From the NCBI GenBank assembly GCA_021604765.1, contig BQJP01000017.1:1-58761 (forward strand): DNA of 58,761 nucleotides, read 5' to 3'. The stretch's first letter is position 1. The number at the start of each line of letters is the position of its first letter. Below are positions 4,569-9,846 of the stretch, one piece after another. The position numbers and the translations under genes are program-made. The DNA comes from Thermodesulfobacteriota bacterium. Its GTDB lineage: Bacteria > Desulfobacterota_D > UBA1144 > Nemesobacterales > UBA2774. The notes under the pieces were generated by a model. That model saw only the letters and a list, made by a program, of their open reading frames with translations, was not told the origin of the DNA and did no database searches.

Positions 4569-6044
4569 TCATCCCTTATAAAAAGCTGGGATCTTGTCCC
4601 CTATAAATATATTTATAGTTTTAGATTCAAGGTACATATTGAGCCCGTCTTTCCCGAGTTCTTTTCCGATTCCGCTCTGTTTTAATCCGCCATATGGAGT
4701 TTCAGGAATTATTCCACCGTATGTATTTACCCACAGGTATCCGGCATTAATATTTTTAGCCACTCTGAGAGCTCTCTTAATATCCTGAGTCCAGATGCCG
4801 CCTGCGAGTCCATAAACTGTATCATTGGCTATCTTTACGGCTTCTGCCTCAGTTTTAAAGGGAATTACAGCTACTATCGGACCGAATATTTCCTCACAAG
4901 CAATGGTTGCCTTGGGATCTACATTGCCAAGCACTGTTGGCTCAAAGAAATAGCCCTTATTGAATTTTCTGGGCCGCTTTCCACCTGAGAGGACTTTTCC
5001 TCCTTCCTTTTTACCTTTGGCAAAGTAAGATTTAACACTTTCAAAATGCTCACGAGAAATTACTGAGCCAATCTCCGTATCATCTTTTAACGGATCACCC
5101 ATCTTTATCTTTTTAACCCTCTTAATAAATGTAGATAGGAACTTGTCATAAATTTTTTCGTGAAGAAGAAGTCTCGTTACAGCGGTGCAGTTCTCACCTT
5201 GATTGAAAAAACCACCCCTAAGTGTTGCCTCAATACAGTTATTAATATCAACGTCATCAAAGACTATGCAAGGGGCTTTGCCGCCGAGTTCAAGTGATAC
5301 ACGTTTAATAGTATCTGCTGCGGTTTTCATTACGATTTTTCCAACTTCAGTTGAGCCTGTGAAAGCGACTTTTGCAACTCCTGGATGCTCTACTAGAGCC
5401 TGACCTGCTACAGCTCCATCTCCGGAAATTACATTAAGAACGCCGTCTGGCAGCCCAGCTTTGGTACATAGTTTTGCAACTTCCAATATACCGCACGGTG
5501 TGTGTTCAGCCGGTTTTAGTACAATTGTGCATCCTGCAACCAACGCGGGAGCGATTTTCCAAAATGACAGCAAGAGTGGAAAATTCCAGGGAATGATATG
5601 CCCAACAACTCCTATGGGCTCTCTAATAGTTACAGTTAACTGTGCTTCTGAAACATTTATGCTTTCACCATTTAATTGATTACTAATTCCAGAATAATAC
5701 TCAAGAGTTTTAATAGAACCACCTAACTCTACAAGCTTACTCTCCCTGATTGGTTTTCCGGTCTCTAAAGTGTTAGTTAACGCAATTTTATCTCGGTTCT
5801 TTTCAAGCGTTTGAGCTATCTTGTGTATATATTTCACGCGCTCAGATACTGGCAATTTTGACCAGCTCTCAAACGCCTTACCAGCGGCTTTAACCGCTTT
5901 ATCAACATCTTGCTTTTGGGCTTCAGCAATCTCAGCAAATGGTTCTTCAGTTGCTGGATTTTCTCTAATGTACGTTTTCCCGCCTTTAGCTCCAACTTCC
6001 TTTCCGTTTATAAATAGTCCGTATTTTCTAAGTTTCTGTGCCAC
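4569..6044 (-). CDS. NAD(P)-dependent aldehyde dehydrogenase
   Basis: An aldehyde dehydrogenase superfamily enzyme (491 aa) oxidising an aldehyde to a carboxylate with NAD(P)+. Catalytic residues are visible as Glu252 in SLELGGKAP and Cys286 in NQGENCTA. The cofactor-binding FTGSTEVGK and the early IPWNFPL motif are present. Overall it resembles betaine/gamma-aminobutyraldehyde-type enzymes, but the substrate cannot be read from sequence. I chose the GTG at 6042-6044 because AGGAGG lies eight bases upstream; a longer 514-residue frame from 6113 has no family-like N-terminus. It converges with the methyltransferase gene with no spacer. Confidence 0.9.
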   Translation of the reverse strand: MAQKLRKYGLFINGKEVGAKGGKTYIRENPATEEPFAEIAEAQKQDVDKAVKAAGKAFESWSKLPVSERVKYIHKIAQTLEKNRDKIALTNTLETGKPIRESKLVELGGSIKTLEYYSGISNQLNGESINVSEAQLTVTIREPIGVVGHIIPWNFPLLLSFWKIAPALVAGCTIVLKPAEHTPCGILEVAKLCTKAGLPDGVLNVISGDGAVAGQALVEHPGVAKVAFTGSTEVGKIVMKTAADTIKRVSLELGGKAPCIVFDDVDINNCIEATLRGGFFNQGENCTAVTRLLLHEKIYDKFLSTFIKRVKKIKMGDPLKDDTEIGSVISREHFESVKSYFAKGKKEGGKVLSGGKRPRKFNKGYFFEPTVLGNVDPKATIACEEIFGPIVAVIPFKTEAEAVKIANDTVYGLAGGIWTQDIKRALRVAKNINAGYLWVNTYGGIIPETPYGGLKQSGIGKELGKDGLNMYLESKTINIFIGDKIPAFYKG

Positions 6045-6163
6045 AGTTAATACCTCCTGGTGTAACTTGCAGTAAAAGACTATACAATTTTTTAATTTTA
6101 ATCTACAAATCACTCAACCGTATGTAAGTTCTCATGCTACAGTTTGAGGGGCTCGTGAACCTC

Positions 6164-6201
6164 TATTGTTTTATTGACAATAATAGTCATTAAAGTAATC
6201 T
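6164..6201 (+). promoter_or_regulatory. Putative bioB promoter with overlapping inverted repeat
   Basis: A consensus -35 TTGACA (6174-6179) is followed after 16 bases by a weak -10 TAATCT (6196-6201). The inverted repeat TATTGT-N7-ACAATA (6164-6182) overlaps the -35 and could be an operator. It does not match the known BirA box. The call rests on motif match and position before bioB. Confidence 0.4.
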
Positions 6202-6236
6202 AAAAAGGCTTTTAAGATGCTTCAAGGAGGACTACT

Positions 6237-7223
6237 ATTTCTTTACTAGAGACTGTTTCCGATAAACTTTTAAATAAAGAAGAGCCGATTACATTTGAAG
6301 AAGCTCTAGCTCTAACAGAACTTTCTAAAACAGAGGTTCCTGATCTAATATCCCTTGCTAGAAAGGTTACTTTAAAATATAAAGGAGATGGTGTATTTCT
6401 CCGCTCTATAATTAGCGCACAAACTGGAAACTGTCCTGAAGATTGCTCATTCTGTTCTCAATCTGCTCATTTTGATACCGAAGTAACAGCTCATCCGCTT
6501 ATGGCAAAAGAGAAAATACTATTGGCGGCTAAACAGTCTGAGAAAATGGGCGCGATGGATTTCTGCATTGTTATAAGCGCCAAAGGTCCTACCCCCAGAA
6601 TTTTCAAACAGGTACTTGAAGCTGTTGATCTTCTTCGTGAAGAAACAAGTCTTAAAATTGGCTGCTCATTAGGTGATCTAAAGGAAGAACAGGCATATGA
6701 ACTTAAAGAACATGGAGTATGGCGTTACAATCACAATCTGGAAGCTTGTAAAAGCTTTTTCCCAAACGTATGCACAACCCATTCATACGAAGACAGGTAT
6801 AGAACCGCAGAGTTAGTTAAAAAAGTTGGTATGAATCTTTGCAGCGGCGGTATTTTGGGAATGGGTGAGTCTGTGAGGCAGAGACTTGAGCTAGCATTTG
6901 AATTAAGAGAACTAGGACCAAGCTGGGTTCCTATAAACTTTATTAACCCAAGACCTGGAACACCATTTGAGAAAATGGAAACAGTAACGCCTTTTGAAGC
7001 AGTAAAAACCATAGCTATATTTCGTTTAATCCTCCCTGATAAAATCCTTATGACAGCCGGAGGTAGAGAAGTTACTCTCCGCGACTTACAGGCTATGGGG
7101 ATGGTTGCAGGAGCAAACGCTATGATTCTCGGTAACTATCTAACTACACCTGGAAGAACTCCTGAAGAGGATTTACGCATGCTGGATGATCTCGAAATGC
7201 CAGTTCGTACAGATGTAAATTAA
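6237..7223 (+). CDS. bioB: Biotin synthase, apparently starting at ATT
   Basis: Radical SAM enzyme inserting sulfur into dethiobiotin, the last step of biotin synthesis. The cluster motif GNCPEDCSFCSQSAHF (C66, C70, C73) is diagnostic of BioB. Later, NFINPRPGTPFE and AGGREVTLRDLQ-type motifs fit the family. Homologous sequence begins well before the first in-frame ATG (6501), which would delete the radical-SAM cysteines. The frame opens after TAA at 6213. The only plausible initiation codon is ATT 6237, six bases after a perfect AAGGAGG (6224-6230), giving 328 aa, the normal length. An ATG at 6217 is in another frame and stops after ten codons. It heads bioB-bioA-bioF. Confidence 0.93.
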   Translation: MSLLETVSDKLLNKEEPITFEEALALTELSKTEVPDLISLARKVTLKYKGDGVFLRSIISAQTGNCPEDCSFCSQSAHFDTEVTAHPLMAKEKILLAAKQSEKMGAMDFCIVISAKGPTPRIFKQVLEAVDLLREETSLKIGCSLGDLKEEQAYELKEHGVWRYNHNLEACKSFFPNVCTTHSYEDRYRTAELVKKVGMNLCSGGILGMGESVRQRLELAFELRELGPSWVPINFINPRPGTPFEKMETVTPFEAVKTIAIFRLILPDKILMTAGGREVTLRDLQAMGMVAGANAMILGNYLTTPGRTPEEDLRMLDDLEMPVRTDVN

Positions 7224-7289: not shown

Positions 7290-8648
7290 ATGTCAGACCG
7301 AACTAAAAAATTAGGTGCTTATGATAAAGAATTTGTATGGCATCCCTTTACTCAAATGAAGGAGTATGAGGAAAAGTCTCCCGTTGTAATTGAAGGCGGC
7401 GAAGGGGCATACTTAATAGACTCTGAGGGCAATAAATATATAGATGGAGTGTCATCTCTTTGGGTAAATATACACGGACATAAAGTTCCGGAAATAGATA
7501 ATGCAATTAAAGATCAGGTTGATAAGCTAAGCCACAGCACACTTCTTGGAGTCACAAATCCTCCCGCTGCGGAGCTCGCAAAAGACCTAATAGAAATCTG
7601 CCCTGAGGGTTTAAAGAAAGTTTTTTATTCGGGTGACGGAGCTAGTGCTGTAGAGGTCGCGCTTAAAATGGCTTTTCAGTACTGGAAACAAAAAGACAAA
7701 CCTGAGAAAGTGAAATTTGTCTGTCTTGGAAACGGTTACCACGGCGATACACTGGGCGCTGTGTCAGTTGGCGGAATTGATCTATTTCACTCAACATTTA
7801 AACCGCTTTTGTTCGAATCCTTTCAAGCACCATCATATTATTGTTACCGGTGCCCTCTTAATAAAGAGTATCCTTCTTGCGATATAGCTTGCGCTACAGA
7901 GCTCGATAAAATACTTTCGGAACACAATGATGAAATTGCTGCAGTAATACTGGAGCCCTACGTTCAAGCCGCAGGTGGCATGATAGTTTCTCCTGAGGGT
8001 TATTTAAAAAAAGTAAGAGAATCATGTGATAAATATGATGTGCTTCTTATCCTGGACGAAGTTGCCACAGGTTTTGGCCGCACTGGGAAAATGTTTGCTT
8101 GTGAACATGAAGATGTTACTCCTGATATGCTGGTATTAGGAAAGGGGCTCACAGGTGGTTACCTACCTCTCTCAGCTACAATTACCACACAAGAAGTTTA
8201 TGACGCTTTTTTGGGTGATTACGAGGAGTTTAAAACTTTCTTCCATGGACATAGCTATGCGGGTAATCCGGTTTCCTGTGCCGCCTCAATGGGTAACTTA
8301 AAAGCTTTTGAGAATTACAACACACTTCACGAACTGCAGGATAAAGTCCAATTTCTAGAAGATGAATTGAAGGAGTTCGGTGGACTCAAGCATGTAGGGG
8401 ATGTCAGAAACAAAGGTGCTATGGTAGGTATAGAGCTTGTTCAAGATAAAGAAACTAAAGAGCCATATGCGCCAGAGCTGAAAATGGGGTGGAAGGTTGC
8501 AGATCTTGCGATGGAAGACGGAGTTTTACTTCGTCCTCTTGGGAATGTAGTTGTTCTAATGCCTCCAGTCGGAATACCTATGGAAGACTTAAAAAAATTA
8601 GTACATGTAACATACAGCTCAATTAAAAAAGCGACTGAAGGTTCTTAA
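7290..8648 (+). CDS. bioA: Adenosylmethionine-8-amino-7-oxononanoate aminotransferase
   Basis: PLP-dependent class III aminotransferase converting 7-keto-8-aminopelargonate (KAPA) to 7,8-diaminopelargonate (DAPA) in biotin synthesis. Visible features are the N-terminal HPFTQM block, VFYSGDGASAVEVALKMA, LDEVATGFGRTG (Asp256) and the PLP lysine K285 in LGKGLTGGYLPL. A Cys-containing insertion (YYCYRCPLNKEYPSC) occurs in many non-enterobacterial BioA proteins. The length of 452 aa is usual. It lies 66 bases after bioB and 22 before bioF on the same strand, so a bio operon is likely. No obvious Shine-Dalgarno precedes this ATG. The amino donor could be SAM or lysine (BioK type); sequence alone does not decide. 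Confidence 0.93.
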   Translation: MSDRTKKLGAYDKEFVWHPFTQMKEYEEKSPVVIEGGEGAYLIDSEGNKYIDGVSSLWVNIHGHKVPEIDNAIKDQVDKLSHSTLLGVTNPPAAELAKDLIEICPEGLKKVFYSGDGASAVEVALKMAFQYWKQKDKPEKVKFVCLGNGYHGDTLGAVSVGGIDLFHSTFKPLLFESFQAPSYYCYRCPLNKEYPSCDIACATELDKILSEHNDEIAAVILEPYVQAAGGMIVSPEGYLKKVRESCDKYDVLLILDEVATGFGRTGKMFACEHEDVTPDMLVLGKGLTGGYLPLSATITTQEVYDAFLGDYEEFKTFFHGHSYAGNPVSCAASMGNLKAFENYNTLHELQDKVQFLEDELKEFGGLKHVGDVRNKGAMVGIELVQDKETKEPYAPELKMGWKVADLAMEDGVLLRPLGNVVVLMPPVGIPMEDLKKLVHVTYSSIKKATEGS

Positions 8649-8670: not shown

Positions 8671-9846
8671 ATGAACGATCCACTTGAATGGATAAAAGAA
8701 GAACTTAAACAAATCCACGATAAACAGTTGTTCCGTTTATTGACTGAACTCGAAACTGGTCAATCTCCTGAAGTAACAATCGACGGTAAAAGATTCATCC
8801 TTTTAGGATCAAATAGTTATTTGGGTTTAAGTGTTGATCCAAAAGTTATAGAGTCAGCCAGGCTTGCGTTGGAAAAGTACGGGACAGGCTCAGGCGGCTC
8901 TCGTCTTGTGAGCGGCAGTTTTGATCTGCACAGGGAGCTTGAGGAGAAAATCGCCGAGTTTAAAAATACTGAAGCAGCAATCCTATTTAGCTCAGGTTAT
9001 CTAGCAAATATTGGAACTATATCTGCCCTTGTCGGTAGTGATGACATAATCTACAGCGATGAGCTTAACCACGCCTCTATCATTGACGGCGCCAGGTTAT
9101 CTCGCTCTACAGTGAGAATATATAAGCATCTTGATCTCAATCATTTACAGGAGCTTCTTGAAGCGGATAAGGATAGGAAATGCAGAAAACTGATTGTTAC
9201 AGATACCGTGTTTAGTATGGATGGTGACCTCGTCCCGCTCCCAGAGTTAGTCGAATTATCCGAGCGTTACGGTTGTATATTGATGATAGATGAGGCACAT
9301 GCCACCGGAGTTCTTGGAAAGAGGGGCAGCGGAGCTACAGAACACTTTGGGGTTGAAGACCGGGTACCTGTTGTTATGGGAACTCTTTCAAAGGCGATTG
9401 GCTCTCTAGGCGGTTATATTGCTGGAAGTAAAGAACTCATAGATTTTATAAGAAACCGCGTCAGGAGTTATATTTTTGATACATCATTACCCCCGGCCTC
9501 AATTGCTGCCTCAATTACAGCGATTGATATAATAGGAAATGAACCTCAGCGTAGAGAACATCTCTGGAATATGGTCAAACAATTTAAAACTGGAATAGAG
9601 AACACCGGGCTTCAAATTCTCCCTTCTCATTCCGCGATCATCCCTGTTTTAATTGGGGACGCAGAACCAGCGCTTAATTTTGCCAAAATGTTAAGAGAGA
9701 ACGGAGTTTTCACACCCGCTGTAAGACCTCCCTCTGTTCCTCACGGAATGTGCAGGATCAGAGTAACAATTATGGCAAAACACACCGGAGAGCATGTAGA
9801 TACAGCGCTTAAAGTTTTTAGAACAGCTTATGAGCCCTTAAAGTAG
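8671..9846 (+). CDS. bioF: 8-amino-7-oxononanoate synthase
   Basis: PLP enzyme of the alpha-oxoamine synthase family, condensing pimeloyl-thioester with alanine to give KAPA. Family motifs include GTGSGGSRLVSG, ELNHASIIDGARLS, IDEAHATGVLG and the PLP lysine K241 in GTLSKAIGSLGGY. The length of 391 aa is normal. It directly follows bioA. KBL/GlyA-like relatives are possible, but the position in a biotin operon favours BioF. No bioD, bioC or bioH is present in the window. Confidence 0.92.
   Translation: MNDPLEWIKEELKQIHDKQLFRLLTELETGQSPEVTIDGKRFILLGSNSYLGLSVDPKVIESARLALEKYGTGSGGSRLVSGSFDLHRELEEKIAEFKNTEAAILFSSGYLANIGTISALVGSDDIIYSDELNHASIIDGARLSRSTVRIYKHLDLNHLQELLEADKDRKCRKLIVTDTVFSMDGDLVPLPELVELSERYGCILMIDEAHATGVLGKRGSGATEHFGVEDRVPVVMGTLSKAIGSLGGYIAGSKELIDFIRNRVRSYIFDTSLPPASIAASITAIDIIGNEPQRREHLWNMVKQFKTGIENTGLQILPSHSAIIPVLIGDAEPALNFAKMLRENGVFTPAVRPPSVPHGMCRIRVTIMAKHTGEHVDTALKVFRTAYEPLK

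Follow-up and report, generated by a model that had tools for sequence, protein, structure and literature searches.

Biotin synthase genes of one bacterial order probably start at AUU, AUC or AUA

The bioB locus

The window—a stretch of 58,761 nucleotides, contig BQJP01000017.1 of a Thermodesulfobacteriota bacterium—belongs to a 3.42 Mb draft genome of 173 contigs from a group of uncultured bacteria, its closest relatives with a name being Candidatus Dadabacteria and MAGs labeled 'Deltaproteobacteria'. It carries a gene for biotin synthase, bioB, which catalyzes the final step of the biotin pathway, followed by two aminotransferase genes (Table 1). The bioB frame encodes a Radical_SAM and a BATS domain, with the first codon of the CxxxCxxC cysteines at 6432. 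An ORF listing restricted to ATG, GTG and TTG returned a 240-aa fragment of it, beginning at an ATG at 6501 (codon 89), the earliest in-frame ATG, GTG or TTG of the gene. As this ATG lies 3′ of the Fe-S cysteines, a start at 6501 could not yield a working biotin synthase.

The first-pass annotation had placed the start at an ATT instead, pointing to a perfect AAGGAGG, six intervening bases, an upstream in-frame TAA and the lack of ATG, GTG or TTG ahead of the cysteines. All of these elements are where they were said to be, with the spacer between Shine-Dalgarno sequence and ATT occupying 6231–6236, and an AUU start of bioB is, as judged from sequence, well supported. The divergent aldehyde dehydrogenase gene (window 6020–6060) probably starts at a GTG near 6045 behind AGGAGG, downstream of the GTG at 6113 used in the ORF list.

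Table 1 Features at and around bioB (positions in the window)
Feature	Position	Strand	Remarks
TTGACA, −35-like hexamer	6174..6179	+	Conserved upstream of the order's bioB genes
TAATCT, weak −10-like hexamer	6196..6201	+	Putative; 16 nt after the −35-like box; 3/6 match to TATAAT
TAA, in-frame stop 5′ of bioB start	6213..6215	+	
10-codon ORF (ATG..TAG)	6217..6249	+	Other frame; overlaps the bioB Shine-Dalgarno sequence and start; window's genus only
Shine-Dalgarno AAGGAGG	6224..6230	+	Duplex −10.9 kcal/mol
bioB start codon ATT	6237..6239	+	ATT/ATA/ATC in 34/34 orthologs
bioB, biotin synthase	6237..7223	+	328 aa; radical SAM cysteines C66/C70/C73
bioA-like, class III aminotransferase	7290..8648	+	ATG start; no Shine-Dalgarno match; putative name, from family and context
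bioF-like, class I/II aminotransferase	8671..9846	+	ATG start; no Shine-Dalgarno match; putative name, from family and context

Conservation of the start within and beyond the order

The phylum sample comprised 57 genomes from two orders, 43 from the order of the window and 14 from its sister. A readable bioB start was present in 33 of the 43, giving 34 genes from seven families—all those of the order; among the other ten genomes, eight yielded nothing at the cut-off, one had a paralog only, and one a 3′ fragment plus a paralog. Two of the 34 genes (L030, L051) are clipped at their 3′ ends by contig ends. At the position of the window's ATT, the alignment shows ATT in 18 genes, ATA in 11 and ATC in five, and ATG, GTG or TTG in none of the 34. 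Comparison with related genomes, proposed in the first-pass annotation along with a search for relatives bearing ATG at this position, thus found the ATT kept as AUH (AUU, AUC or AUA; ATH in DNA) order-wide.

Each of the 34 genes has an in-frame stop 4–35 codons 5′ of the ATH. Between this stop and the ATH, 31 contain no ATG, GTG or TTG; the other three (L013, L051 and the second copy in L031) contain an in-frame TTG. In eight genes (L002, L003, L004, L006, L007, L009, L010 and L026), the three ordinary codons are missing from the upstream stop all the way through codon 69. The third base of the start codon changed at least seven times on the tree of the 34 genes, never to G. Of 61 fourfold-degenerate columns in the same alignment whose amino acid is conserved, 2 contain no G, so the empirical chance of a third base without G is about 3% and not negligible alone. 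We take this as modest evidence that ATG is avoided at the bioB start, the lack of any ordinary start to use instead being the stronger point.

A Shine-Dalgarno-like stretch precedes all 34 ATH codons, mostly at a distance of 4–9 nt. Its strength is variable but mostly high (median duplex −8.85 kcal/mol), and several of the ATA genes have only GAGG, 7–9 nt away. When bioB was set against 421 compared genes, 7% of those in one genome (G019) and 40% in another (G039) had a Shine-Dalgarno sequence at least as strong. The latter share, together with the weakly preceded ATA genes, argues that a strong Shine-Dalgarno sequence compensates for the start codon in some lineages only.

Copies of bioB outside this ortholog group start differently. 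Eleven genomes of the order carry a second copy, with about 50–60% identity, and all eight examined have an in-frame ATG no more than two codons from the aligned start. In the sister order (14 genomes), all nine bioB genes examined have an ATG one codon past the aligned position. Among more distant bioB genes, an ATG or GTG adjoins the aligned start in five (L040–L043 and L046) and an ATG lies nine codons upstream of it in L044, while the alignment of L047 begins too late to place a start. The ATG starts of paralogs and sister order argue that the ATH start is a property of the ortholog and the order, rather than of the organisms' gene-start habits.

Expression signals, initiation machinery and rarity of AUH starts

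TTGAC is present in all 34 bioB upstream regions and TTGACA in 33 of them by alignment, with a −10-like hexamer usually 16 nt further on and the start codon some 30–40 nt beyond that. A consensus promoter scan returned no promoter at bioB; it is the conservation of TTGACA that leads us to infer one. Folding of the leader was no different from that of shuffled sequences (mean z 0.2), and Rfam gave no family above threshold there (one match scored 15.4 bits, the gathering score being 97). A riboswitch or other leader RNA was rejected on these grounds. Control of the biotin operon by the usual BirA repressor was likewise rejected, on the strength of the two ligases scanned. Biotin ligases measure 260–266 aa in the three loci read, and a Pfam scan of two found ligase domains only, with no N-terminal DNA-binding domain; the usual BirA repressor would thus be absent there, the third protein being of similar length. 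Across the 38 genomes with a match, ligase open frames are mostly 260–295 aa long, with one of 135 and one of 368.

As to the initiation machinery, the window genome encodes an initiator-like tRNA (L180) with anticodon CAU and three G-C pairs in the anticodon stem, which we take to mark it as the initiator. Genome G019, read whole, has 47 tRNAs, among them three with CAU, one isoleucine tRNA with GAU and none with UAU. No special initiator tRNA was seen in G019 or among the 30 of 41 tRNA matches examined in the window genome. An IF3 gene was found in 40 of the 43 genomes of the order.

To gauge how common AUH starts are, we set the whole of G019 (1.16 Mb) against the initial 1.2 Mb of G039, to which the bioB and infC loci of the latter were added. 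Removal of overlapping shadows left 615 ortholog pairs. An AUH gene that happens to have an ordinary start codon close by can escape this comparison. Thirteen pairs shared at least five identical residues ahead of the first ATG, GTG or TTG of both members, and bioB and infC were, as judged by eye, the only clear shared AUH cases. The other 11 were set aside by eye, two of them after a detailed look, as shadow ORFs (rRNA or antisense), alignments extended too far or unclear cases. A pair beginning in a poly-A run was not counted as a clear AUH case either. This orthologous ORF (G019 C1 near 936551, G039 C1 near 722886; joined loci L099–L157 and L200–L259) opens with a run of A immediately behind a stop and lacks an in-frame ATG at that point; slippage, an overlap or a non-standard start are all possible.

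The gene infC is the classical AUH gene, and the first-pass annotation had invoked it as a precedent. The parallel is apt, for in this order infC has retained AUA as its start: of the 30 loci read (40 genomes had a match), 29 show ATA preceded by a Shine-Dalgarno-like stretch, and in 13 the interval from the upstream stop to the IF3 core is free of ordinary start codons. Whereas the third base drifts between T, C and A in bioB, infC of this order has ATA wherever its start could be placed.

A possible translational throttle on BioB

The best explanation, to which we assign a probability of roughly 0.78, is that translation of bioB begins at a weak AUH codon, which restricts BioB output, responds to IF3 and has been kept order-wide. 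The start codon is read from sequence; the further steps would run as follows. A strong Shine-Dalgarno sequence would recruit the ribosome and place the ordinary initiator tRNA (CAU) on the AUU at 6237, where two Watson-Crick pairs and a third-position mismatch would form; with this tRNA, BioB should begin with fMet. As initiation at AUH would be inefficient and checked by IF3, the codon may throttle BioB at a fixed setting; by analogy with known AUH genes, BioB output should rise with a drop in IF3 or in initiation fidelity. AUH may have been kept because AUG would yield too much of an enzyme that consumes its own Fe-S cluster. According to PMC2964542, BioB works by a suicide mechanism in which the sulfur comes from its own [2Fe-2S] cluster, and an E. 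coli cell needs only about 250 molecules of biotin. With such a mechanism and so small a need, little BioB may suffice and an excess may waste clusters. The conserved start suggests that cells hold BioB production low via a weak start signal. The link of biotin synthesis to translation initiation control raised in the first-pass annotation is plausible as a hypothesis.

Several other readings deserve weighing. An error of sequencing or assembly might be suspected in a draft as fragmented as the window genome, and the first-pass annotation had named it as a way in which the ATT could prove spurious. The same ATH plus Shine-Dalgarno arrangement recurs, however, in 33 separately assembled genomes and with three different third bases, which speaks against chance as well as artifact; we consider an error practically negligible as an explanation. 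The codon might instead be an ordinary internal isoleucine, for which a third base of T, C or A without G is the expected pattern, with the true start lying farther upstream or downstream. Upstream, the close in-frame stops leave no ordinary start codon in 31 of the 34 genes. Downstream, eight of the 34 have none within their first 69 codons either, and a downstream start in the window would drop the Fe-S cysteines, making this reading highly improbable. Nor do we find it at all likely that translation begins at the ATG at 6217 in the other frame and then passes into bioB, whether by a frameshift or by reinitiation after terminating at the overlapping stop. The ATG is real, and all four members of the genus read keep an ATG or GTG 20–23 nt upstream, in the same frame and closed by TAG or TAA just inside bioB. 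Yet any ATG within the 45 nt upstream occurs in just 9 of the 34 orthologs, and in two different frames, whereas ATH and a Shine-Dalgarno-like stretch are found in all. We therefore rejected frameshifting or coupling from this ATG, which is not conserved outside the genus; of what the first-pass annotation had suggested here, the ATG stands and its joining to bioB does not. Within the genus of the window, the 10-codon ORF could still occlude bioB initiation or couple to it.

A far closer contender accepts the AUH start and takes it to be a fixed, unregulated low-expression device of the pcnB type, for which changes in IF3 have no physiological relevance. This version parts from the best explanation at the regulatory step only, and nothing found speaks against it. 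Both the leader, with its lack of a structure signal and of any Rfam family above threshold, and the thought that infC is autoregulated and so should keep IF3 steady (compare PMC5472188) are in line with it. We put it at even odds. At the other end, bioB and infC may form a small IF3-sensitive regulon, with biotin synthesis governed at initiation rather than by BirA. This extension strikes us as rather doubtful; were it true, a loss of initiation fidelity—through slow growth, an antibiotic or stress—would raise BioB while AUG genes fall, and a biosynthetic enzyme would be under start-codon control throughout an order.

To our knowledge, AUU, AUC and AUA starts are few among bacterial genes, and deeply conserved ones are fewer still. 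The nearest likeness is to infC (AUU, AUC or AUA; autoregulated by IF3), where, as in bioB, an AUH codon behind a Shine-Dalgarno sequence is kept over a wide group. However, infC encodes IF3 itself and its codon closes a feedback loop, whereas bioB is a metabolic gene on which any effect of IF3 would be one-way. In E. coli, expression of pcnB is reportedly held down by its AUU start (Binns and Masters 2002), so that a gene other than an initiation factor is throttled, as proposed for bioB; the gene and the phylum differ, and conservation in bioB spans seven families.

In S. aureus, ccpN (AUA), cvfC1 (AUU) and citZ (AUA) combine AUH with a strong Shine-Dalgarno sequence, and reporters with AUU or AUA reach about 10% of AUG, ccpN up to 30% in rich medium (PMC13009471). 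The same paper describes ccpN and cvfC1 as conserved in their groups, as bioB is here. These cases, a regulator, a small protein and a lineage-specific enzyme, were established by experiment, whereas that of bioB is drawn from sequence. Streptomyces sigR resembles bioB in having a conserved non-canonical start that sets protein amount, but the codon is GTC rather than AUH and its repression by IF3 is experimental; a canonical start overproduces SigR (PMC5472188). In the open-licence literature, covered mainly by titles and abstract openings, we found no report of a non-ATG bioB start in bacteria. AUH starts as such are already known (infC, pcnB, ccpN, cvfC1), and the conserved AUH bioB would be a new, order-wide case.

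An order-wide weak start in a biosynthetic enzyme, accompanied in some of the same cells by an ATG paralog, offers a natural experiment on weak starts. It also has a practical side: gene finders limited to ATG, GTG and TTG would trim BioB to codon 89, without its Fe-S cysteines, and the trimmed protein could make Dadabacteria look unable to synthesize biotin. Two genomes (G003, G006) have only 3′ fragments of bioB and one (G005) has none. In a MAG of the same group (L048, 2426–2563), only the last 46 bioB codons remain between the divergent aldehyde dehydrogenase gene and bioA; bioB appears to have been lost there while bioA and bioF remain. G016 carries a tandem bioB pair (L031) with the ATH starts ATC and ATT, both behind TTGACA.
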